Below, piece by piece: positions 3,718 to 34,681 of a DNA stretch of 34,681 bases. The notes under the pieces are model-generated. The model was not told the DNA's origin. It did not search any database and saw only the letters and a program-made list of their open reading frames with translations. This stretch comes from Nitrospirota bacterium (GTDB taxonomy: Bacteria > Nitrospirota > Thermodesulfovibrionia > SZUA-242): NCBI GenBank assembly GCA_003235715.1, contig QJVM01000260.1, positions 1 through 34,681 of the forward strand, in the 5' to 3' direction. Within the stretch, counting starts at the first letter, position 1, and each line of letters begins with the position of its first letter. The position numbers and the translations under genes were made by a program.

Positions 3718-5999
3718 GGGCGCCCGTGGTGAAGACCAAATCGCTTCCCTACCGTTTTATATCCCTGACCGGGGCCTTCGCCGCCGTGTTCTGGACGATT
3801 TGCATCCTCGCATCCTATGGCTGGAATGTGTCCAAGGAACGGGCCAAGACCAGGGAAGTGGCGCTCAGTACGGCCCATGCCTATTTCAACAAGGACCAGG
3901 CCTATCGTCTGTGGGCCACAACCCATGGGGGAGTCTATGTCCCCGTCACAGACGAGACGCCACCCAACCCCTACCTCGACCACGTGAAGGAGCGTGACAT
4001 CGAGACCCCCTCGGGAAGAAAACTGACTCTCATGAACCCGGCGTACATGCTCCGTCAGATGATGCAGCAGTACTCGAACCTCTATGGTGTCCGTGGCCAC
4101 ATCACCTCGCTGAACACCCTGAATCCCATTAACAGGCCGGACGAATGGGAAGCGGAGGCGCTCCGTTCTTTCGAGGCAGGAGTGAAGGAGGTGGTGGACT
4201 TCACCAGCGTCGACGGCCAGCCCTATCTTCGGCTGATGCACCCCTTCGTGACCGAAGCCGGCTGCCTGAAATGCCACGCCTCGCAGGGATATGTCGTGGG
4301 GGATATTCGGGGGGGCATATCTGTGAGCACCCCCATGGCCCCTTTTCTTGATATCGAAAGGCAAACCCTGAGGGCCATCAGGCTGACCCATGCGGCCCTG
4401 CTCCTTCTTGGATATGGGAGCATCGGCCTCGTGGCATGGAGGGCCAAGCATCGGACCCGGGAACGCATGCGGGCCGAACGGATCATCCGAAAATGGGCGC
4501 ATATATTTGAAAGTGCAGACTGGGGCGTGGCCTTGGTGGCCCGTGACGGTGAAACCCTGGAAACGGCAAATCCGGCCTTTCTGGCCATGCACGGATATTC
4601 AGATACGCCCGAGAAGACGCTGCGTCTGTCCGATCTCCCGGCGCCGGAAAACGCCGGAGAACTTTCCCCATACGTCCGGCTCTCGGAGACGAGGCGGCGC
4701 ACATTTGAATCGACCCACCTGCGTAAGGACGGAACCGTGTTTCCCGTGCTCGTGACGATCACGAGCATGTCCAATGAAACCGGTGAAACCGGGAACATGG
4801 TCTTGAACGTTCAGGACATCACGGAACTCAAGACCGCCCAGAAAGAGAAGGATGCTCTGCATGAGCAGCTCGTCAGAGCCCAGCGCCTGGAGTCCATCGG
4901 CCGTCTGGCCGGAGGCGTAGCCCATGATTTCAACAACCTTCTTTCGGCGATTTTGGGTTATACCGAACTGGGTCTCCTTCGGACGCCGCCGGATTCGGAG
5001 GTGCGGGAGTATCTCGTTGCCGCCAACGAAGCCGGTGAAAAGGCTGCGGGCGTGGCCCGTCAACTCCTGGCCTTCAGCCGCAAACAGGTCCTCGAAACAA
5101 AGGTCCTGAACCTGAACACCGTTGTCCGAAATATGGCAGGCCTTTTAAAGCAGGCCGTGGGTGAAGGCGTCATCCTGGACCTTTCGATTTCGAGCCCGGT
5201 GAAAAACATCATCGCCAATCCGGGCCAGATCGAACAGGTCCTGATGAACCTTTGCGTTAACGCGCGGGATGCCATGCCGGAAGGCGGACGCCTGGGTATC
5301 GAGACGCATAATTTTGAGGTGACAGAGGAACGCCATTCAGGCCCTCCGGCCGGCCAGTACGTGGGTCTTTGGGTGTCTGATACGGGCGTGGGGATTCGTG
5401 CGGAACATATTGACAAGATTTTTGAGCCTTTCTTCACGACGAAGGAAAAGGACCTGGGAACAGGCTTGGGCCTCGCCATGGTGCACGGCATCGTAAAACA
5501 GCACGGCGGGCATGTGGAGGTTCACACGCGGGAAGGCGAAGGGACGACCTTCACCGTCTATTTCCCGGCAGTGCCTGAAGGGGTCCGGGAAACCCCGCCC
5601 CGGGCAGCCGAAGAACTTCGGCCCGGAAATGAACGAATTCTGGTGGTGGACGACGAACCCGCCATTCAGGCCCTGGTGCGGGATGCCCTGACACCCCTGG
5701 GTTACAAGGTATGCCTTGCCGGGTCTTCGGAGCAGGCAATGGCCCTGATGGAGGCCTCCCCTCGGCCGTTTGACCTGCTTCTGGCCGACGTGATCCTGAG
5801 GGGGATGAGCGGACGGGCCCTCGCCGAGAGGGTGAGGACCCGCTGGCCGCAGACCCACGTCATTCTGATGACCGGCTACGGATATTCGGAAACAGCGGGG
5901 CACGAGGCCCTGGACTCTTCCTTCGATGTGCTCGCCAAACCTCTTTCGGTTGCAGACCTGTCGGAAAAACTCAGGGAGACCTTCGACCCCGTGGCTTGA
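3714..5999 (+). CDS. Membrane hybrid histidine kinase with c-haem (Tll0287/DUF3365-like) sensor domain
   Basis: A 761-residue kinase. A membrane helix at about 14-36 and another at about 222-243 enclose a periplasmic domain with a single c-type haem motif, C184-L-K-C187-H188, in the setting typical of Tll0287-like (DUF3365) sensors: the YGVRGHITSLNP-like stretch before it and the GDIRGGISVSTPM strand after it. A PAS domain follows (about 260-375), then His404 in AGGVAHDFNN, an ATPase domain (NLCVNARDAM, SDTGVGI, GTGLGLAMV) and a C-terminal receiver with Asp692 in LLLADVI. By family knowledge the haem could sense redox state or a small gas; that is inference. The start ATG overlaps the stop of the soluble hybrid kinase, implying a coupled pair. 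Confidence 0.93.
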   Translation: MRAPVVKTKSLPYRFISLTGAFAAVFWTICILASYGWNVSKERAKTREVALSTAHAYFNKDQAYRLWATTHGGVYVPVTDETPPNPYLDHVKERDIETPSGRKLTLMNPAYMLRQMMQQYSNLYGVRGHITSLNTLNPINRPDEWEAEALRSFEAGVKEVVDFTSVDGQPYLRLMHPFVTEAGCLKCHASQGYVVGDIRGGISVSTPMAPFLDIERQTLRAIRLTHAALLLLGYGSIGLVAWRAKHRTRERMRAERIIRKWAHIFESADWGVALVARDGETLETANPAFLAMHGYSDTPEKTLRLSDLPAPENAGELSPYVRLSETRRRTFESTHLRKDGTVFPVLVTITSMSNETGETGNMVLNVQDITELKTAQKEKDALHEQLVRAQRLESIGRLAGGVAHDFNNLLSAILGYTELGLLRTPPDSEVREYLVAANEAGEKAAGVARQLLAFSRKQVLETKVLNLNTVVRNMAGLLKQAVGEGVILDLSISSPVKNIIANPGQIEQVLMNLCVNARDAMPEGGRLGIETHNFEVTEERHSGPPAGQYVGLWVSDTGVGIRAEHIDKIFEPFFTTKEKDLGTGLGLAMVHGIVKQHGGHVEVHTREGEGTTFTVYFPAVPEGVRETPPRAAEELRPGNERILVVDDEPAIQALVRDALTPLGYKVCLAGSSEQAMALMEASPRPFDLLLADVILRGMSGRALAERVRTRWPQTHVILMTGYGYSETAGHEALDSSFDVLAKPLSVADLSEKLRETFDPVA

Positions 6000-7077: not shown

Positions 7078-7770
7078 ATGAAACCTATGATCAAGATGGT
7101 CCTTTTTGACATCGACGGCACCCTGATCAGCACCGGAAGGGCCGGAACCCGGGCCATGAGCTCGGCGTTCAGGGAACTCTTCGGACTGGAAGACGCTTTT
7201 GCGAAGGTTCCCATGGCCGGCCGGACCGACCCGACGATCATCCGGGACGGTTTGGAGGCCCACGGCCTGCGTGCTGTTGATGGAACCTATACCCGATATA
7301 TAAACGCATATCTGGAACACCTGGCGAGGGAAATGCTCGTTAGTCCCGGCAAGAAAGTCATGCCGGGGATTCTCGAAATTCTGGGTTCCCTGAAGGCCCG
7401 GAGCAGGCCTCCGGTTCTTGGTCTGCTCACAGGGAACATCGAGGCGGGGGCCAGGGTTAAACTGGAGAATATGGGGCTGTGGCCTTACTTCTCCGTCGGG
7501 GCCTTTGGGAGTGATCATGATGACCGGAACAGGCTTCTCGAGGTGGCCCTCAGCCGGTGCCGCGAACACCTCGGGCTGAACTTCGGTCCGGAAGAAACGA
7601 TGGTGGTCGGCGACACGCCCAAGGATATCGCCTGCTCCAAACCCTTCGGGGCCACGGCCGTGGCCGTGGCCACGGGACCCTATTCCATGGCCGAACTGGC
7701 GGCCCATCATCCGGACCACCTTTTCCAGGATTTTTCCAATCCCCGGCCCTTCCTGAATCTCGTCTCGTAG
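7078..7770 (+). CDS. HAD-superfamily hydrolase, phosphoglycolate phosphatase-like
   Basis: A 230-residue cytoplasmic phosphatase of the Gph/PGMB type. It shows the nucleophile motif D11-I-D13-G-T, a helical cap (about 20-85), a TGNIE segment that supplies the motif II threonine, and the late acid motif VVGDTPKDI with the following AVATG. By family these enzymes hydrolyse small phosphate esters; 2-phosphoglycolate is the common substrate but the sequence does not fix it. Three ATGs lie close together (7078, 7087, 7093) and none has a strong ribosome site, so the start may be a few residues further in. It stands alone between the tRNA promoter and the hemL promoter. Confidence 0.88.
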   Translation: MKPMIKMVLFDIDGTLISTGRAGTRAMSSAFRELFGLEDAFAKVPMAGRTDPTIIRDGLEAHGLRAVDGTYTRYINAYLEHLAREMLVSPGKKVMPGILEILGSLKARSRPPVLGLLTGNIEAGARVKLENMGLWPYFSVGAFGSDHDDRNRLLEVALSRCREHLGLNFGPEETMVVGDTPKDIACSKPFGATAVAVATGPYSMAELAAHHPDHLFQDFSNPRPFLNLVS

Positions 7771-23490: not shown

Positions 23491-23940
23491 ATGGTAAAGG
23501 CATTCTTTCAAACACAATCGGAAACGTCTCAACTGATACTAAGGGGACTTCTGGGAATCGTGTTCTTCCCACATGGCGCGCAGAAGCTACTCGGATGGTT
23601 TGGAGGCGGCGGCTTCAGCGGAACCATGGAGTTCTTTACCGGCGCACTGGGCATTCCGGCCGTACTCGCCTTTCTCGTGATCATGACGGAATTCTTCGGT
23701 GCTCTGGCCCTGATCGCCGGCTTCTTCACGCGGCTCGCGGCCTTCGGGGTCGCAAACATCATGGTCGTGGCCACGTTCATGCTTCATTGGCCGAACGGCT
23801 TCTTCATGAACTGGTTTGGCAACCAGAAGGGCGAAGGCTTCGAATACCACATTCTCGCCCTGGCGATCTGCCTGGCCTTGATGATCAAAGGCGCCGGTCG
23901 GTGGTCTGTAGACGGATGGATTGCCGGGCGGATCAACTAG
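23491..23940 (+). CDS. DoxX family membrane protein
   Basis: A 149-residue inner-membrane protein with four predicted helices (about 15-33, 50-75, 78-98 and 120-137). Family features are LLGIVFFPHGAQKLLGWFGGGGF near the start and LIAGFFTRLAAF in the middle. ATG 23491 has a perfect AAGGAGGT six bases upstream. DoxX members are tied to quinone/oxidative stress in some bacteria and, in archaea, to thiosulfate:quinone oxidoreductase; given the MhqR-like regulator directly upstream, a quinone- or thiol-stress role under its control is the likelier one. Substrate unknown. Confidence 0.9.
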   Translation: MVKAFFQTQSETSQLILRGLLGIVFFPHGAQKLLGWFGGGGFSGTMEFFTGALGIPAVLAFLVIMTEFFGALALIAGFFTRLAAFGVANIMVVATFMLHWPNGFFMNWFGNQKGEGFEYHILALAICLALMIKGAGRWSVDGWIAGRIN

Positions 23941-24356: not shown

Positions 24357-26099
24357 TCAGATATTCGCGGTGATCTCGGGGAACACCTTGTAGAACATGA
24401 TGTAGGCCATGAGCAGCGTCAGAGCCAGGTTGAAGGATTGTCCGCAGACATACAGAATGAGGGGTTTTCCTCCCTTGAAATAATGGGCCAACTCTCGGAA
24501 GTTCGTGGCCAAACCGATGCTCGTGAAGGCGAGGCAGAAGAACCAGCCACGAAGGATACGGGTAAAGCCCCTGAGAACCCCGTGGTCCACCACGCTGTAG
24601 GCGACATCACTCCCCATGGTCTGGGTCATGAGAGAGAAGATGATGGACGCCCCGATAAACCCGATCACGAATTTCGGAAACCGATACCAGATTTCCATCG
24701 CCTGCACCTGCTGGCCCGGAACGCAATCCACACGGGCGCACCAGTAGACCGCCACGCAGAAGGCGATGACTCCGATGAGCACGTTCTGAATCATTTTGAC
24801 CGTGGCCGCCACGTAAAGGGCCTGCTCGCTAAGAAAGGCGCCGGCCGCGGCCACAGCACCGGTGGCATCGATGGTCCCGCCCATCCACGCGCCCCCAAGC
24901 ACATGGGGCATGTCCACCGCCTTGATGAAAGCCGGCATGGCCACCATCATGACGGCGGTGAAGACCAGCGACAGACCCACCGCCAGGGTCAGTTCCTCCT
25001 TCTTGGCCCGGCATGCGGCAGCCGTGGCAATGGCGGCCGAAACCCCGCAGACGGACATGTCGGACGAGATCGTGATATTGAGCGTCTTGGACTCCATCTT
25101 GAGGACCTTCTGCCCGAAGACGAACGTCCCGACGAGCACGACGGGGGTCACCACCCAGGCCACAAAGATCCCGGGCACGCCGATGGAAAGAATCTTGCCG
25201 AAAAGAATCTCGGCCCCCAGAAGCACCAGACCCGTCTTGATGTAGTATTCGGTCTGTACCGCCGGCATGACCCATTTGGGTGTCCCCACGGTGTTACTGA
25301 TGATCAGACCGAAGATGATGGCCCATGCGGCAAACCCGATGCCGTATTCCTTCATTGTCGCCTGGCCCTCCATGACATAGGCCAAGACGGCCACGATGAA
25401 GACAAACACGAACCCCCCCATGAACTTGGCCATATCGCCGGTCATCACCTGCTTGCCAATCCCGAAGAAGATCATCAGCGCAATCATGAGCCCAAACAGA
25501 TACGGGATCTGATTGTATGCGCCGGGCTTGGTCTTCTTCTTTGCGTCAGAAGCCTTCCGATGGGCGGCCCGCCACGAGTCGATGGAGGCTTTCGCCGAGG
25601 CGTTCAGACTCGCATCCTGGAATCCGGCCGCCTCAGCCGCCGCTTCGGCTTCCTGGGCCTGGGCCAGGGCCGCTCCCTCGACCGCTTTGGCCTTTTCGTA
25701 CTTGGGAACAGCCGCAGCCGCCTTGGCTTCGGCCTGCTCCTTGCCCATGATAAAGGAATCTAAAGGATTGCTCTTCCATCCGTGGGGCTTGCTGGTCCAC
25801 TTCTTGATGGCCTTCCCGATGTCCGAATCAGAGGCCTTGGGTTTCTTCTTCGCGTCGGTAGCCTTGTACCAGGCAATGGTCTTGAACGGCGCGCGTGCGG
25901 CCTCGGCCTTGATGGTGGCATTGGATTTATCAAAGGTTTCCTGCATCCCCTCCGGGGCCCGGGGAAAGAAAATCATCATGCCGATGATCAGCAATGCAAA
26001 TCCGAGCCAGATCGCCCAATAGTCTTCCTTCTTCCACAGGTCGGAAAACTGGCTGGAGCCGCGGTCCACAACTATTTCATTCTGCTTCTGTTCCGCCAT
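24357..26099 (-). CDS. YeiH-type putative sulfate exporter with a large N-terminal insert
   Basis: A 580-residue membrane protein of the UPF0324/YeiH (Cons_hypoth698) family, whose members are annotated as putative sulfate exporters. The family core begins at about residue 200 and has some ten helices, with ISSDMSVCGVSAAIATAAACRAKKEE and GGAWMGGTIDATGAVAAAGAF as the diagnostic blocks. Unusually, a first helix (about 29-46) is separated from the core by about 150 Ala/Lys/Glu-rich residues containing two copies of a K-A-T/S-D-A-K-K-K unit, each a short distance after a Trp (W78 and W176). GGGGGA precedes ATG 26099. It follows an exported rhodanese and is followed by a small membrane protein, so sulfur-compound handling is likely; substrate and direction are not established. 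Confidence 0.87.
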   Translation of the reverse strand: MAEQKQNEIVVDRGSSQFSDLWKKEDYWAIWLGFALLIIGMMIFFPRAPEGMQETFDKSNATIKAEAARAPFKTIAWYKATDAKKKPKASDSDIGKAIKKWTSKPHGWKSNPLDSFIMGKEQAEAKAAAAVPKYEKAKAVEGAALAQAQEAEAAAEAAGFQDASLNASAKASIDSWRAAHRKASDAKKKTKPGAYNQIPYLFGLMIALMIFFGIGKQVMTGDMAKFMGGFVFVFIVAVLAYVMEGQATMKEYGIGFAAWAIIFGLIISNTVGTPKWVMPAVQTEYYIKTGLVLLGAEILFGKILSIGVPGIFVAWVVTPVVLVGTFVFGQKVLKMESKTLNITISSDMSVCGVSAAIATAAACRAKKEELTLAVGLSLVFTAVMMVAMPAFIKAVDMPHVLGGAWMGGTIDATGAVAAAGAFLSEQALYVAATVKMIQNVLIGVIAFCVAVYWCARVDCVPGQQVQAMEIWYRFPKFVIGFIGASIIFSLMTQTMGSDVAYSVVDHGVLRGFTRILRGWFFCLAFTSIGLATNFRELAHYFKGGKPLILYVCGQSFNLALTLLMAYIMFYKVFPEITANI

Positions 26100-26202: not shown

Positions 26203-27249
26203 CTACTTGGACGCGGTCTGGTTGTCCAGTTTCTTCAGAGTCTCTTCGAGTTTGTCCAGCTTCTTGGTCAGTTTCTTGATATCCTTGTTGACCTTGTCAA
26301 AGTTGTAGTATTGCTGGCCATTGGGGGCTTCAACGGGATAGTTGGCAAAATCGCTGGCGTAGACTCTCCAGGATTCATCCCAGTTCGCCAGGTCCTTGAA
26401 TCCCATAAGCCGGAGTTCAAAATAGGTGAGCGTGGACCGGGTGCCGGTCTGGCAATAGGCCACCGTCCGCTTGTTCCGGTCGAGGGATCCGAAATTCTTG
26501 TTCAAGGCGTCGGGATCGAGGTACTCCACCGTGTCCATCTTCTCGGTCTTGGGGTTCTTGACCTTCTGGAGCGTATCCAGGTGGCTCACATTCATAGTGG
26601 TGTTCGGCACGTGTCCGCCACGGAGGGCCCGGATATCCGTACCCTCATGTTCCTTCTTGCTCCGGGAGTCGATAAACTGAACGCCTTTCTTCTTTCCGTT
26701 TGCAATGGACAGAACTTCATCCGTTGTGGCCACCAGGTTGTGCTGGACCTTGGCCTTGAAGGTCTTGGGGGCCTTCTTCACCGGAGTGGTATCCAGCCGG
26801 TTTCCGCTCTTCCTCCAGGCGTCGAGACCGCCATCAATCAGGTGCACCTTGTCATGGCCGAGGTATTCCATGATCCAGAACCCCACGGTGGCATCAGGGA
26901 GGGTATCCAGATTCCCGTGGTAAAAGACCACGTGGCTGTCGTTGCCAATTCCCACCTTGCTCAGGATGCTTTCGTACTTGGACGTATCGTTGAAGAGGCG
27001 GGCCGTTGAGTCCCGGAGAGCCTTCTTGCACCTTTTGCCCAAACTGATGGCACCGGGAATATGCCCTTTGACGTAGTCCTCAAGGTCCCTGCAGTCCACG
27101 ACGACCCAGTCGGGTTTTTCGATGTTCGATTTAACCTGGTCAGGGGTTATCAGCAGAGACGGATTGGCCCATTGGGCGGCAAAGCTCGTTCCGGCAAGCA
27201 GAACAAGGGCCACAGCCATGCCGATACCAGCAAATAGTTTCCTTGTCAT
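26203..27249 (-). CDS. Exported tandem-rhodanese sulfurtransferase
   Basis: A 348-residue secreted sulfurtransferase. ATG 27249 has AGGAGGT six bases upstream and opens with a signal peptide (TRKLFAGIG then a hydrophobic run, cleavage about 25 after FAA). Two rhodanese domains follow: the first (about 38-150) has VVVDCRDLEDYVKGHIPGA but its active-site loop reads FYHGNLDT without cysteine, so it is probably structural; the second (about 175-302) has the active Cys266 in AYCQTGTRST. The C-terminal 30 residues are a Lys/Leu coiled coil. It would move sulfane sulfur in the periplasm. It heads the operon with the YeiH-type transporter and has a sigma-54-type promoter. Confidence 0.9.
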   Translation of the reverse strand: MTRKLFAGIGMAVALVLLAGTSFAAQWANPSLLITPDQVKSNIEKPDWVVVDCRDLEDYVKGHIPGAISLGKRCKKALRDSTARLFNDTSKYESILSKVGIGNDSHVVFYHGNLDTLPDATVGFWIMEYLGHDKVHLIDGGLDAWRKSGNRLDTTPVKKAPKTFKAKVQHNLVATTDEVLSIANGKKKGVQFIDSRSKKEHEGTDIRALRGGHVPNTTMNVSHLDTLQKVKNPKTEKMDTVEYLDPDALNKNFGSLDRNKRTVAYCQTGTRSTLTYFELRLMGFKDLANWDESWRVYASDFANYPVEAPNGQQYYNFDKVNKDIKKLTKKLDKLEETLKKLDNQTASK

Positions 27250-28595: not shown

Positions 28596-29777
28596 GTGAG
28601 ATTTTCATCCCTCAGGTTCCTGCCGTGCCTTTTCCGGAAAACCCGGCCTGTGCAGCTCACGGTATTCCTCACAAGGAAATGCAATGCCCGGTGTTCCTTC
28701 TGCTTCTATCTTTCCCGCACCTCCCCGTCGGGGGAGGATGCCCCGGAACTCACCCTTGATGAACTCTCCGAGGTTTCCAGACATACGGGACGTCTTCTCT
28801 GGCTCGCCTTATCCGGCGGAGAGTTCTTTCTTCGGCCCGATCTGGTAGAAGTGGTCGAAGCCTTTTACAGAAACTCGTCGCCCTCCATCATCCTCCTCCC
28901 GACAAACGGAATCGCCACGGATCTCATCGTCGACAAGGTCAGCCAGATCGTCCGACGTTCGCCACGAAGTACGGTCGTTGTAAAGGTTTCCGTGGACGGT
29001 CAGGAGGAAACCCATGACAGACTCCGAGGCGTTTCGGGCGCCCGGCGGAAGGCCATGGAAACCTGCAGGGAACTGGGACGCATGGCCCGCTGTTTCAAGA
29101 ATCTGGAAGTCGGAGTGAACTCTGTTTTCTGCCGGGCCAACGAGGCGGAAATGGAAGCCCTTGTTCGCGAGATCCGCGCCCTGGGCGAGGTCACCACACA
29201 CACGGTATCCATGGTTCGGGACAAGGTGGGGGACCCGTCTCTGCCCGAAGTCGACTGGGCCCGCTACGAACAGGTTGCGGACCGGCTCGCCGGTGATCTG
29301 ATGGAATCACGGGGCAGGCGGTACCGTTTCAGTGGCGCTCGGCTGAAAGCGGCCCAGGACGTCCTCCAGAGGAGAACCATACGGGAAACAGCACGGGTTC
29401 GCAGGTCGCAGGGCCCCTGCTATGCCGGAAAGCTGACCCTGGTGCTCACGGAAACGGGGGATGTCTTCCCGTGCGAATCCTTTACCAGGAAATTGGGGAA
29501 CGTCCGGTCAGACGGTTATGACCTGCAGGCCCTGGTTAAGCAGAAGCGCTCGCTTAGAATCATTGACGGTATAAATCGTGAAGGGTGCTGGTGCACGCAC
29601 GAGTGCTATCACATGATGAATATCCTGTTCAACCCCCGGAGAGTTCCTGAACTCGCAAGAGAGTTCCTGCGGCTTCCCGGCGGACCGCCTTTGTTCGCGC
29701 AACGATCTTCCTTTCCTTCACCCCGTCACCGCCGACTCGTGAACGCGGCTGCCTGCCCTCCAGAGTCGCGTCAGTGA
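28596..29777 (+). CDS. Radical SAM protein with SPASM/twitch-like C-terminal cysteines
   Basis: A 393-residue radical SAM enzyme starting at GTG 28596. The cluster motif C29-x3-C33-x2-C36 (CNARCSFC) is followed by the SAM-binding LALSGGEFFLRPDL (about 69-82). The C-terminal third carries more cysteines (GPCYAGK, FPCESF, CWC, ECYHMM), the layout of SPASM or twitch domains that hold an extra iron-sulfur cluster and are common in peptide- and glycolipid-modifying enzymes. Product unknown. Its last 60 bases overlap, tail to tail, the end of the B12-type radical SAM gene on the minus strand. Confidence 0.88.
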   Translation: MRFSSLRFLPCLFRKTRPVQLTVFLTRKCNARCSFCFYLSRTSPSGEDAPELTLDELSEVSRHTGRLLWLALSGGEFFLRPDLVEVVEAFYRNSSPSIILLPTNGIATDLIVDKVSQIVRRSPRSTVVVKVSVDGQEETHDRLRGVSGARRKAMETCRELGRMARCFKNLEVGVNSVFCRANEAEMEALVREIRALGEVTTHTVSMVRDKVGDPSLPEVDWARYEQVADRLAGDLMESRGRRYRFSGARLKAAQDVLQRRTIRETARVRRSQGPCYAGKLTLVLTETGDVFPCESFTRKLGNVRSDGYDLQALVKQKRSLRIIDGINREGCWCTHECYHMMNILFNPRRVPELAREFLRLPGGPPLFAQRSSFPSPRHRRLVNAAACPPESRQ

Positions 29778-31163
29778 TTTCAGTCCCTTCCAGGCTGTAA
29801 GCAGGTCCCGCCCGGTCCGGATGGCCGCGACCCGCCGAATCAGGAAAGAGGGTCTGGAGTAAAACCGCCGGAACGCCATCTGTCTCAGTTCGACAATTTG
29901 CTGACGGGTCATGGTATAGGGAATGAACGCGGCCCCTTGGTAGGTGTAATCGTTTAAATCCTTGGATACGGTTCCGTAACACGACGCCTGGTCATAAAGA
30001 TCCGTCCCCGGGAAGGGGGTTAGAGCGTGGAAGTTGGCAAAGTGAGGGTCCAGGCGACACGCAAACTCGATGGTCTGGAGCGCTTCTTCATAGGTCTCTC
30101 CGGGCAGGCCAATGATAAAAGGGGTGAACACATGAAGGCCCGCTCGTTTTGCGGACCGGACCGCTCTTTCCACCTGCGAAAGCGTGATTCCCTTCCTGAC
30201 CGTGTTAAGGTTTTTCTGCACGCCGCTTTCGGCGCCGATGAGGATCGCCCAGCATCCGGCCTTCCGGAACGCCTTGAGAAGCCCTTCATCCACCTGGTTT
30301 GCACATGCGGATGCAAACCAGGAAAACCTGAGCCTGCGTTTCCGGATCTTCTCGACCAGTTCGAGAGCGCGGTCCCGGTCCGCGGCCAGGGTGTCGTCAA
30401 TGAATTTGATCTCCCGGTATCCTTGAGACAGACAGAGCTCGATTTCTTCGATAACGTTATCCAGGCTCCGGTAGCGGATTCCTGAAGCGCGAGTCCGGTC
30501 CATTTGAAAACAATAAAGGCATCGACGGTTGCATCCTCGAGAGGTGAGGACAACCGCCACAGGCTTCTTTCGATAGGTGCCCGGGGGCGGGATGTAACGC
30601 CCGGCCTCTCCAAGCAGATGCCGGGCGGGAAAGGCCAGCCGGTCCAGGTCCGTGACAAAGGGCCTTGGGGCGTTCGCGACGATACGCCCGTCGGCCGCCC
30701 GGAAGACCAGGCCGGGGAGGCCGCGGAGCAAATCCCCTGTTCTGAGCCGGTCCAGCAACTCCACCACGGTTTCCTCTCCCTCGCCGGTGACCACGGCGTC
30801 GAGGGCGTGGCAGTCCGTAAGGCATCCCTCACGCACCGCGATGGGATAGGGACCCCCGGCCACGATAAACGCATCCGGCAGAACCGCCCGGACCGCCTCC
30901 GCCGTAATCTTTGCCCTGGGCCATCCGAATGCCGTGGAGTAGATCCCCACAAACCCGCACCCGCCCTCCGAAACCTGGCGGATGATCTCGTCATGGTCCA
31001 TGAAAGCGCCGTTCAGGAACCGGACCGGATAACCCGCCGCTTCCATGGCCGAGGCCACATACAGCGTTCCAAGCGGTTGCCAGTAGTTGATCTGGGATTC
31101 GACCGTCCTGGAGGAAAAGATGTCTTCGGGGTGCCAGGAGGGAATAATCAGTGCAGACTTCAC
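29718..31163 (-). CDS. B12-binding-domain radical SAM protein
   Basis: A 481-residue protein with an N-terminal Rossmann-like cobalamin-binding region (KSALIIPSWHPEDIF, then FVGIYSTAFGWPRA, VAGGPYPIAVREGCL, VTGEGEETVVELL) and a radical SAM domain with CNRRCLYC and the later KFIDDTLAADRDRA and GAESGVQKNLNTVRKGI segments. The DxHxxG cobalamin ligand motif is not evident, as in many relatives. Start: homologues begin near MKSALIIP, so GTG 31163 (GGGG five bases ahead) is chosen; GTG 31169 or TTG 31205 are alternatives. It lies 31 bases after the universal stress gene on the same strand. Methylation or ring chemistry on a lipid or cofactor is typical of the class; the substrate is unknown. Confidence 0.88.
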   Translation of the reverse strand: MKSALIIPSWHPEDIFSSRTVESQINYWQPLGTLYVASAMEAAGYPVRFLNGAFMDHDEIIRQVSEGGCGFVGIYSTAFGWPRAKITAEAVRAVLPDAFIVAGGPYPIAVREGCLTDCHALDAVVTGEGEETVVELLDRLRTGDLLRGLPGLVFRAADGRIVANAPRPFVTDLDRLAFPARHLLGEAGRYIPPPGTYRKKPVAVVLTSRGCNRRCLYCFQMDRTRASGIRYRSLDNVIEEIELCLSQGYREIKFIDDTLAADRDRALELVEKIRKRRLRFSWFASACANQVDEGLLKAFRKAGCWAILIGAESGVQKNLNTVRKGITLSQVERAVRSAKRAGLHVFTPFIIGLPGETYEEALQTIEFACRLDPHFANFHALTPFPGTDLYDQASCYGTVSKDLNDYTYQGAAFIPYTMTRQQIVELRQMAFRRFYSRPSFLIRRVAAIRTGRDLLTAWKGLKSLTRLWRAGSRVHESAVTG

Positions 31164-31194
31164 GGACACCCCGTGGACATAACCGTTGGCCCCT

Positions 31195-31659
31195 CTATTT
31201 GGCAACCAGAACGGGTATCGAGGCCCGGTCCACGACTTCGCGGCTCACGCTCCCGATGAACAGGTTCTTCCGGTCGGGGTTTCGGGACCCGATGATGATC
31301 ATCTCCGCGTTCTCCGCCTCGGCCGTCTTCAGGATCTCCTCAGCCGGATGCCCCTCGCGGATCAGGGGTTTCACGCCATCGACGCCCCGCTTCCGAAGTT
31401 CGTCTGAAAAGTAGGCCGTCACCCTCCGGGCCTTCTCGTCAAGGCCTTCCTGGTGTGCCGTACCCTGAAGGGACTCCCGCAGGGTCTTCATCTCGGATTC
31501 ACTCAGGATCAGGTCATCCATGACCGAGCGCCCCTCGGGTTTCTGAACATACAGCAGCACCACGGTCTCGGGGCGGGTGCATGTAAAGAGGGAGGCCATG
31601 GTTTCTATGGCATGAAGGGAACGTTTGGATTCGTCAACCGCAACCAGTATCTTTTTCAA
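31195..31659 (-). CDS. Universal stress protein (UspA family)
   Basis: A 154-residue single-domain Usp. It starts at TTG 31659 (L-K-K-I-L-V-A-V-D, read as Met), with GAGGG a few bases upstream; there is no in-frame ATG close by. The C-terminal nucleotide-binding region reads IIIGSRNPDRKNLFIGSVSREVVDRASIPVLVAK: the final G-S-V-S is kept but the first glycines of the G-2x-G-9x-G pattern are partly replaced, so ATP binding is uncertain. It follows the two small membrane proteins of the yeeE operon and may tie that operon to energy or sulfur stress; this is inference. Confidence 0.9.
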   Translation of the reverse strand: MKKILVAVDESKRSLHAIETMASLFTCTRPETVVLLYVQKPEGRSVMDDLILSESEMKTLRESLQGTAHQEGLDEKARRVTAYFSDELRKRGVDGVKPLIREGHPAEEILKTAEAENAEMIIIGSRNPDRKNLFIGSVSREVVDRASIPVLVAK

Positions 31660-31701: not shown

Positions 31702-31911
31702 TTATTCATCTGTCTTCAGCAGGTTTTTGTAATATTCGTTCATTTCCTCGCTGATGCCCTCGACCCCTTCAGAACCTCCGCCATAGCCGGCTGCTTCCAC
31801 GGCCCCGAAATAACCGGGCTCCGTGCCTGTCTTCGCCGATACCGCCCAGCCTCCTGCGAATCCAACGCCCCACATCGCAACCGCCAGTAGAAACCATATT
31901 CCCGATTTCAT
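31702..31911 (-). CDS. Small single-pass membrane protein B, paralogue of the gene before it
   Basis: A 69-residue protein of unknown family. GGAGG lies four bases before ATG 31911. It has one membrane helix (about 4-26), then a Gly/Glu-rich linker and an acidic tail ending NEYYKNLLKTD. Compared with the 67-residue neighbour, both open MKxx[LI]W, both have GFxxG[YW][SA]V at the end of the helix, and both end with a [DE]-x-YYKxL-x3-D unit, so the two are clearly duplicates that have drifted. The gap between them is nine bases. Position right after tusA suggests that they assist the YeeE/TusA pair. Confidence 0.78.
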   Translation of the reverse strand: MKSGIWFLLAVAMWGVGFAGGWAVSAKTGTEPGYFGAVEAAGYGGGSEGVEGISEEMNEYYKNLLKTDE

Positions 31912-31920
31912 CCTGCCTCC

Positions 31921-32124
31921 CTATTCCGACCCGCCCGAATCATCCTGCTGGTACAGGCTCTTGTAGTAATCTTCCAGGTTCTCAATCGTTTCAGCCTGCT
32001 GCGTGGGCGCCGATTCGGTCTTGACCCCAAACCCGACCTCCATGAACGGAGGCACGCTGTAGCCCATCATGAAGCCCAGAAGCACGGACACCAAAAGAAT
32101 AATGATCCACAATTGTTGTTTCAT
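31921..32124 (-). CDS. Small single-pass membrane protein A
   Basis: A 67-residue protein of unknown family. The frame is open further upstream inside tusA, but GGGGAGG six bases before ATG 32124 and the immediate membrane helix (about 5-22) fix the start. A short Pro-containing linker (SVPPFMEVGFG) leads to a Thr/Gln/Glu-rich stretch and the tail ENLEDYYKSLYQQD. It starts 19 bases after tusA. By the positive-inside rule the short Lys-bearing N-terminus would be cytoplasmic and the acidic YYK tail periplasmic, facing the entry side of a YeeE-type channel. No known function. Confidence 0.78.
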   Translation of the reverse strand: MKQQLWIIILLVSVLLGFMMGYSVPPFMEVGFGVKTESAPTQQAETIENLEDYYKSLYQQDDSGGSE

Positions 32125-32143
32125 CGCTGCCTCCCCGCGGGAC

Positions 32144-32395
32144 TCAAGCCTTCTTGATCTTGAACAGAAACTTGCCGCCCTCCTTCTGCCGGTCGATGAG
32201 CTCGTTCCCATTGGCATCGCACATGGCCGAAATGGACTCGGCCGAGGAGGGGTTGTCAAAGGACACCTCCAGCACGTTCCCGGGGCTCAGTTTTTCCAGA
32301 GCCTTCTTGGTATATATCTGGGGATGAGGGCATACGTAACCGGTCACATCCAGCGCGTAGACTCCGTCTTCCTTCTTTGCAAATGTCATCGCCAT
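32144..32395 (-). CDS. tusA: TusA-family sulfur carrier
   Basis: An 83-residue sulfur-transfer protein. Cys22 in the CPHPQ motif (the family CPxP) accepts the persulfide; VLEVSFDNPSSAESISAMCDANGNELI and the KFLFKIKK end are typical. ATG 32395 has GGAGG eight bases upstream; the GTG at 32404 overlaps that site and is unlikely. A second cysteine (C59) is present. It lies 33 bases after the YeeE-type gene. In known systems a TusA-like protein (TsuB) partners with a YeeE-type channel (TsuA) for thiosulfate uptake, so this pair probably takes in a sulfur compound and delivers its sulfur in the cytoplasm. Confidence 0.93.
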   Translation of the reverse strand: MAMTFAKKEDGVYALDVTGYVCPHPQIYTKKALEKLSPGNVLEVSFDNPSSAESISAMCDANGNELIDRQKEGGKFLFKIKKA

Positions 32396-32428
32396 AACAG
32401 GCACCTCCGTATGGATTTAGGGGTTACT

Positions 32429-33868
32429 TCAAAGTTCAAGCTCAAAGCCGGCCATCTCCTTGGCCATCTTCCGCTCCGTCCACCAGTTGAAGAACTTGAC
32501 GCCGATATAGGCACCGCCGATCATTCCGAGACCGAACAGCCAGCCGGACATATCGCCGTTGGCGGTCCGCACAAAGAACGCCCCCACGTTGCATCCCAGG
32601 GCCAGCCGGGACCCGATGCCCATGAGCGCGCCGCCCACAATGGCCCAGACCGCCAGTTCCTTGGTGGGGGCCTTCCATTTGAACTCGTTGTAGAGCAGGG
32701 CCATGACCGCGGCTCCGCCGATGAGGGCCACGGACATCCAGTCCGCAGGATTGATGGCCGGGCTCGGAATCCCGTTTACCCAGCCGAAGTAGATGTTATC
32801 CATGTGGTTCCAGCCGAGCTTCTGCATGACCCAGCCGACCCACTGGGCTTCCTGTGTCGTCACATACCAGTAACCCGGGTCGAACACCGTCCCCTTGGCC
32901 GACACGCCGAAGTCGAAACCTATACGTTCCAGAATGGTTCCGGCGTTCTTCACGCCAAACTTCATGCGGAGCCCTTCAATCACGAACATCTGGAGACCAC
33001 AGGCGATTCCGAGGAACAGACCCGCAATGGCCGTCCTCTTGGAGGCCATGATCATTCCCCAGAACCCTTTCAGGTGGTCAGAGAAGGTGATGTTCTCTTT
33101 CTTCTGGTCCGCCAGCTTCTTCAGGTAGCTCCGCCGGACCCAGAAGATATAGACCACAGCCAGTAAGAACAGGGCGGGGATCAGAACGCCGACAAAGGCA
33201 TTTCCGAAAAACGCTCCGCCCACAGATTCGTCCTTCATCCCCAGAGCGCCCGCAAAGGTCTTCACCGGCTGATTCCAAACGTAGCCGGCCAGATATTGGT
33301 CCACCCAGCCGTCCGTGACCCCGATGGAAGTGGGCAGTCCCTTTTGCGCCGCAGAGGCCGTCCAGGATGCGGGTACCAACTTGTTGAGCCATCCGCCCAT
33401 ATCCACGAAAGTGGACTGCGTCACGCTGATGGACAGGATGACAAGCATCGATACACCGTTTCCCTCACCGGCCTTGTAAAGCGAACCCGACGCACAGCCG
33501 CCGGCAAACACCATTCCAACCCCGAAGATCAGCCCGGCAATGGCGGCGTGCATGCTCACGGGCGCTGCGTGAAAGGTACTCCAGCCGGTGGAGGAAACAA
33601 AGGCCGATGTGATGGCAAAAAGAACCGTGGCGATCATGATCCCCACGACCATCCGGGGCACCCCGACGGCGAAGAGGTCCCTGAAGGCCGAGGCAAAACA
33701 GAATCGGCCGTACTGAAGACACATTCCGTAAATGAACCCGAACCAGAGGTACGCCGAAAGATAGATATAGTATTCATGCAGCGCATACGTCCCCACGCTG
33801 ACCAGAATCAGAAACCCCACGATCCCGTAGGCCCATAAGACGTTCTTTCTTGGTACCGATTCTTCCAC
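32429..33868 (-). CDS. YeeE/YedE-type sulfur-compound channel
   Basis: A 479-residue membrane protein of the YeeE/YedE family. GTG 33868 is chosen because AGGAGG lies nine bases upstream; the longer frame to 34099 runs through the promoter region and is not conserved. Conserved cysteines sit where thiosulfate is relayed in the family: C50 and C57 in YGMCLQYGRFCF, C125 in FAGGCASGS and C426 in LALGCNVGAFF. It is longer than thiosulfate channels of the family (about 330-400 residues) because of two extra loops, about 150-215 and 300-380, rich in Trp, Gly and Tyr. It heads the operon with tusA and two small proteins and has a perfect sigma-54 promoter. Substrate may be thiosulfate or another sulfur compound. 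Confidence 0.93.
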   Translation of the reverse strand: MEESVPRKNVLWAYGIVGFLILVSVGTYALHEYYIYLSAYLWFGFIYGMCLQYGRFCFASAFRDLFAVGVPRMVVGIMIATVLFAITSAFVSSTGWSTFHAAPVSMHAAIAGLIFGVGMVFAGGCASGSLYKAGEGNGVSMLVILSISVTQSTFVDMGGWLNKLVPASWTASAAQKGLPTSIGVTDGWVDQYLAGYVWNQPVKTFAGALGMKDESVGGAFFGNAFVGVLIPALFLLAVVYIFWVRRSYLKKLADQKKENITFSDHLKGFWGMIMASKRTAIAGLFLGIACGLQMFVIEGLRMKFGVKNAGTILERIGFDFGVSAKGTVFDPGYWYVTTQEAQWVGWVMQKLGWNHMDNIYFGWVNGIPSPAINPADWMSVALIGGAAVMALLYNEFKWKAPTKELAVWAIVGGALMGIGSRLALGCNVGAFFVRTANGDMSGWLFGLGMIGGAYIGVKFFNWWTERKMAKEMAGFELEL

Positions 33869-34238: not shown

Positions 34239-34681
34239 TTACTCGAAAACCGTGACCAGGGTTTTGTAACGAAAAGGGGTGGACTGTCGGAGGAACTGTC
34301 GTGTCAGGGTCCGGGGTGAAAGCTGTTTCGCCAGTTCCGGCAAAGCCTCTTCCAGGGTCTGGTCCGAAACAACGGCAACGGGGCCGCCCGCAGGAAGTTC
34401 TCCCGCGCTCCGGTAGAACAGCGGATGGTCGAGTCTCCATGTGAACCGGAGGGGCGAAAGGCGAAAACGGGCTTCGCCGTCCCCGACCCCACCCCCCGCT
34501 GCCATGAGCCGTAACTCCTTCACACTGAAGAGGTCCAGAAGGGCCACGGAAGCTGTCGTGTTTCCCGAGGACTCCCTCTGGGGAAGGGCATAGACGTAAA
34601 CCCTTGATGATGGAAGTCCGTCCAGATACCGGGCCGCGTCCCTCAGGTTTGAGGCGCTGTCCCCGTTCACAAAAGGGTGGT
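34239..34681 (-). CDS. C-terminal part of an unidentified protein (5' end outside window)
   Basis: The frame is open to the window edge (H-P-F-V-N-G-D-S-A-S-N-L-R-D-A-A-R-Y-L), so the GTG at 34670 is probably internal and about 147 residues of a longer protein are present. There is no membrane helix in this part. The opening segment, with a small acidic turn followed by a helix and then RVYVYALP, resembles the periplasmic end of GT39/ArnT-type membrane glycosyltransferases as I remember them, but the similarity is short and I would not name it on this basis. It ends with TAA at 34239, 370 bases from the yeeE start, on the same strand. Confidence 0.6.
   Translation of the reverse strand, partial: HPFVNGDSASNLRDAARYLDGLPSSRVYVYALPQRESSGNTTASVALLDLFSVKELRLMAAGGGVGDGEARFRLSPLRFTWRLDHPLFYRSAGELPAGGPVAVVSDQTLEEALPELAKQLSPRTLTRQFLRQSTPFRYKTLVTVFE

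Follow-up and report, generated by a model that had tools for sequence, protein, structure and literature searches.

Two small single-helix proteins encoded with a long YeeE-family channel and a TusA-like carrier: candidate parts of a sulfur import line in Nitrospirota and other bacteria

Both sulfur oxidation and sulfur disproportionation include a step that is not yet understood, the transfer of extracellular sulfur to the Dsr machinery in the cytoplasm. A contig of a Nitrospirota bacterium (GenBank assembly GCA_003235715.1, contig QJVM01000260.1, 34,681 nucleotides; this one whole contig, C60, is the window referred to below) encodes, next to a YeeE/YedE-family channel and a TusA-like carrier, two very small membrane proteins, designated here smA and smB, and the question is what such proteins could contribute to this step. 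The genes follow each other on the minus strand in the order yeeE, tusA, smA, smB, with intergenic gaps of 33, 19, and 9 bases (Table 1), and the compact operon described in the initial annotation is borne out by these coordinates and by the Pfam matches. The start of tusA was set by comparison with 83-aa relatives. A promoter and terminator scan returned nothing above chance.

Table 1. The yeeE-tusA-smA-smB operon and selected neighbouring genes in the window
Feature	Coordinates	Strand	Description
yeeE	32429..33868	-	Long YeeE/YedE-family channel, 479 aa, GTG start; Pfam Sulf_transp E 2e-39
tusA	32144..32395	-	TusA/TsuB-like sulfur carrier, 83 aa, VCPHPQ (CPHPQ motif); Pfam TusA E 6e-21
smA	31921..32124	-	67-aa protein with a single N-terminal helix; no reliable match in Pfam or NCBIfam
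smB	31702..31911	-	69-aa protein with a single N-terminal helix; no reliable match in Pfam or NCBIfam
Universal stress protein (Usp)	31195..31659	-	Starts 42 bases past smB; Pfam Usp E 4e-25
B12-binding radical SAM protein	29718..31178	-	Conserved neighbour
Secreted double rhodanese	26203..27249	-	Candidate sulfur donor, adjoining the operon directly in several relatives; Pfam Rhodanese E 3e-28
PMT_2-like membrane glycosyltransferase, 3' end	34239..34681	-	Truncated at contig end

Searches of smA and smB against Pfam and NCBIfam gave nothing reliable, and the open-access literature searched contains no description of either protein. A profile comparison shows the two proteins to be homologues (99%, E 5.6e-18), and they share a GF-x-x-GY motif in a conserved helix that has no conserved cysteine. 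The helix motif of smA is GFMMGYSVPPFMEVG, and its acidic tail ends in YYKSL; smB carries the motif TG-x-EPGYF...AAGYGGG and an acidic tail ending in YYKNL. The tails are conserved too, both in TG-x-EPGYF and in the final YYKxL. A second, diverged yeeE-tusA-smA-smB-usp set, followed by the start of a radical SAM gene, occupies a 3.2-kb contig of the same genome (C63; L058 1-3213), which may represent a strain, a paralogue, or a foreign contig. Comparison of the window with this copy gives dN/dS values of 0.12 for smA, 0.13 for smB, 0.14 for usp, and 0.03 for yeeE and tusA, at dS of about 0.9-1.4. The values for smA and smB resemble that of the neighbouring usp; as judged from these substitution rates, both are real and constrained genes under purifying selection.

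The scan of the genome collection yielded 306 encoded relatives, 80 of which were kept; their titles name Nitrospirota, Desulfobacterota, Pseudomonadota, Rokubacteria, and 'Deltaproteobacteria'. Small single-helix proteins are encoded directly 3' of tusA in 76 of the 79 loci that are readable, i.e., have the downstream DNA present (L070 and L138 were classed by eye): smA and smB occur as a pair in 68, one helix protein with a Gly/Tyr-rich tail takes their place in 8, and 3 have none. Loci with yeeE-tusA and no small protein at all are L116, L117, and L137. The yeeE-tusA-smA-smB order is more than a chance arrangement because it is found in dozens of genomes and the dN/dS of the small genes is low. 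In the nearest 60 genomes, smA-like matches adjoin yeeE-tusA. A survey of 246 genomes in the phylum found smB-profile matches in 15, all of them within the 44 that encode a long YeeE; the chance probability of this co-occurrence would be 6e-13 for independent genomes, a condition that related genomes violate. The smB gene lies within about 1 kb of the long YeeE gene on the same contig in 14 of the 15 genomes, with none elsewhere; in the 15th (G118), the two are on short pieces of separate contigs. The small proteins, then, are present rather than absent beside yeeE-tusA in relatives, and the earlier proposal that they are dedicated, uncharacterised partners of yeeE-tusA holds up on both counts (76/79 loci; long YeeE in 15/15 smB genomes). 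Very probably, smA and smB are dedicated to the long YeeE. Two loci (L069 and L070) have an extra TusA-family gene between tusA and smA.

Most class relatives have, in the position after tusA, the single protein type with a (GGYGAP)n-like tail (Gly 34%, Ala 18%, Tyr 10%, and almost no Cys), which smA matches mainly over the helix, in a similarity that may be partly compositional. The sulfur globule proteins of Allochromatium are likewise small, exported, and rich in Gly and Tyr repeats. The GGYGAP tails may be compared with them, and the proteins studied here differ in retaining a membrane helix and the link to yeeE-tusA. Near the operon, some relatives also encode other small proteins, exported or lipoprotein-like, whose repeats are of the GYGDD, GDYGDS, or GYGEK type (L052, about 4700-5200; L115, about 7185-7695; L043, about 4620-4955).

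The channel and the carrier resemble the TsuA-TsuB (YeeE-YeeD) thiosulfate importer of Spirochaeta thermophila and E. coli in both sequence and fold, including a three-cysteine channel with an adjacent gene for a TusA-family carrier (PMC11073785). Four well-placed cysteines had been noted in YeeE, of which C57, C125, and C426 are indeed invariant across the family, but C50 is replaced by Met in part of the relatives. The three invariant residues align with the three conserved cysteines of S. thermophila TsuA (StTsuA) (PMC11073785), and the YeeE profile matches only StTsuA/StTsuAB in the PDB. The scores against the curated NCBIfam TsuA/TsuB models are far under their cut-offs (103 bits versus 400, 64.7 versus 645, and 33.2 versus 147.5). 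For structure prediction, YeeE and TusA alone were joined in an artificial read-through chain derived from the sequence of the window; its alignment consisted of read-through rows, separate TusA rows having been dropped (they had 20-28% identity to the query and lay off its TusA part). The top Foldseek match of this artificial chain (pLDDT 77.6, pTM 0.81) is 8k1r, the StTsuA-TsuB complex, with E 3.2e-14 and target TM 0.72, so that the predicted fold, albeit of an artificial chain, supports a channel-carrier model. Compared with TsuA-TsuB, YeeE is larger here (479 aa against about 340) and its middle part is extended; smA and smB come in addition, and DsrE-type genes lie upstream. Thiosulfate may be a candidate substrate of this YeeE. 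SoxT and PmpAB also belong to the YeeE family and import sulfur for oxidation, but they differ in size and gene context, and the passages on them in PMC11582611 mention no small subunits. In the YeeE tree, the window sequence clusters with Desulfobulbales and two Nitrospirota bins, a position that may reflect transfer or misbinning.

The lack of a DsrE gene in the window, pointed out in the initial annotation, is probably a contig-end effect, because three DsrE-type genes are present on a separate contig of the same genome, C263, which overlaps with the end of the window. C263 ends in the PMT_2-like gene that is also cut at the window end, the shared stretch (128 codons) having 96.4% nucleotide identity, and it encodes a TusA-like protein and, just upstream of this gene, DsrE-type proteins of 90, 55, and 100 aa. 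As this overlap is far closer than the C63 copy, C263 is best read, from sequence comparison, as the window's upstream neighbour or a strain variant thereof. The sole PDB match of the 100-aa family profile is A. vinosum DsrE (2hy5, E 0.005); in locus L120, a member of this family falls just under the Pfam DsrE cut-off and its 123-aa neighbour lies above it. The profile of the 55-aa DsrH-like protein has no significant PDB match, so its assignment relies on position and recurrence. The DsrE-type triplet and the PMT_2-like gene are conserved upstream in relatives, too, with the DsrE-type genes 5' of the glycosyltransferase-like gene that precedes yeeE. The genome contains dsrA. Elsewhere in it, on contig C177 (L060 7574-9519), three DsrE-type genes lie directly 5' of a gene for a 381-aa YeeE, and smA/smB were not detected there.

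YTD, i.e., yeeE-tusA-dsrEFH type II, clusters likewise combine a channel of the YeeE family with TusA and three DsrE-type genes. In comparison with them, the locus, read together with C263, has its DsrE-type genes upstream of the PMT_2-like gene and yeeE, with smA and smB coming after tusA. Small membrane proteins of this kind are unnamed in the published descriptions (PMC13293266, PMC13047784), and genes of fewer than 75 codons beside tusA are easily overlooked, which corrects the reading of YTD-like clusters.

On which side of the membrane the tails lie is suggested by charge and by gene fusions. The mean charge of smA and smB is about -6 in the tail and about +0.7 at the N-terminus. Directly after tusA, and followed by usp, three families (G009, G270, and G357) encode in the slot of the small gene a fusion of a helix, a GYG linker, and a rhodanese domain; that of G009 runs across two contigs that overlap exactly over 127 bases, and those of G270 and G357 retain the CxxxxRS loop. 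G164 and G028 encode such helix-linker-rhodanese fusions too, but not on the contig that carries yeeE. The lineages in which these fusions were seen have the single Gly/Tyr-tailed type and are not smA/smB lineages. Stand-alone rhodaneses of the same family start with signal peptides, which makes it probable that the fused domain and the tails are periplasmic, and a periplasmic location of the smA and smB tails is, by predicted topology, likely. Secreted rhodaneses are encoded after smA/smB in five class-relative loci (L035, L036, L037, L038, and L040). In the window, the rhodanese gene lies 4.4 kb from the operon, and only 14 of the 80 loci have one within 3.5 kb downstream. A small-subunit family that always accompanies one YeeE type, in a slot that can be occupied by a rhodanese fusion, provides candidate periplasmic parts for sulfur import and makes this step testable.

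We give roughly even chances to the proposal that the operon encodes the membrane components of a line importing sulfane sulfur, in which smA and smB hold the donor at the channel mouth. The topology, docking, and direction of sulfur flow that we infer would be as follows. A periplasmic rhodanese, or another donor, would place sulfur onto the outer cysteine of the long YeeE, which would relay it along its three cysteines to TusA; from TusA, the sulfur would pass to the DsrE/F/H-type proteins, whose genes lie upstream, and through them to the Dsr pathway. Each of smA and smB would span the membrane once, with the N-terminus inside and the acidic (in relatives, Gly/Tyr-rich) tail outside, and would keep the sulfur donor at the mouth of YeeE; whether they actually dock a rhodanese or another donor could go either way. 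A more far-reaching version, in which YeeE, TusA, smA/smB, and the periplasmic rhodanese form one membrane complex that takes up zero-valent or sulfane sulfur from the exterior, its Gly/Tyr-rich or acidic tails tethering a donor enzyme or polysulfide, and feeds the DsrE/F/H line directly, would amount to an undescribed multi-subunit translocation system and is put forward only tentatively. Metabolically, the line may serve oxidation or disproportionation.

The foremost alternative is that smA and smB are small stabilising subunits, comparable to the tiny subunits found in other membrane complexes, that assist the folding or gating of YeeE and bind no donor. The conserved GF-x-x-GY helix, with no conserved cysteine, would suit such a role, as would locus L098, where tusA is missing between yeeE and smA, but smA-smB-rhodanese still come after yeeE, so that the tight link to YeeE persists. 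However, conservation extends to the tails, and the helix-linker-rhodanese fusions in the slot point to a role outside the membrane; a purely stabilising function appears rather unlikely.

It is improbable that the tails are instead cytoplasmic and recruit TusA or the DsrE/F/H-type proteins, although tusA directly adjoins the small genes in nearly all loci and acidic tails could meet basic carriers. The charge pattern favours an N-in, C-out orientation, the rhodanese family represented in the fusions otherwise has signal peptides, and L098 retains smA-smB with yeeE even with tusA absent from the slot.

Slightly more doubtful still is the idea that the small proteins are envelope proteins or substrates modified by the glycosyltransferase-like and radical SAM proteins encoded nearby, with no more than gene neighbourhood connecting them to sulfur. 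Such genes are indeed frequent among the 80 loci (PMT_2-like in 72, B12-radical SAM in 58, FAD amine oxidase-like in 49, SPASM radical SAM in 36), and the GGYG tails are rich in repeats. Nevertheless, smA and smB come after tusA with greater constancy than most of these genes do, across gaps of a few bases, and their partner in the fusions is a rhodanese, not an envelope protein.

That the operon is the YTD marker of sulfur disproportionation, with smA and smB as its two hypothetical proteins, as the initial annotation hinted, is hardly credible: the locus does belong with yeeE-tusA-dsrE-type clusters, but the two hypothetical proteins of YTD are published as sulfurtransferase subunits with a DsrE fold (PMC13293266; PMC13047784), smA and smB are widespread in Pseudomonadota as well, and YTD is poorly supported as such a marker (PMC13293266) and cannot act as one alone (PMC12998232). 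An identity of smA/smB with Chp1/Chp2 of YTD was accordingly rejected, the latter being soluble proteins of the DsrE fold and the former one-helix proteins of 67-69 aa with no Pfam match.

The operon is accompanied by several other recurrent genes. A usp gene lies 3' of the operon in 41 of the 80 relatives. The conserved neighbours, in the window at 28596-31178 and in relatives, encode the PMT_2-like, FAD amine oxidase-like, B12-radical SAM, and SPASM radical SAM proteins. Farther away, the window encodes a YeiH-like protein of the putative sulfate exporter family, whose N-terminal extension is long (24357-26099, on the operon's strand), and a DoxX protein (23491-23937) that also scores above the Pfam cut-off for DoxD, the small subunit of thiosulfate:quinone oxidoreductase.
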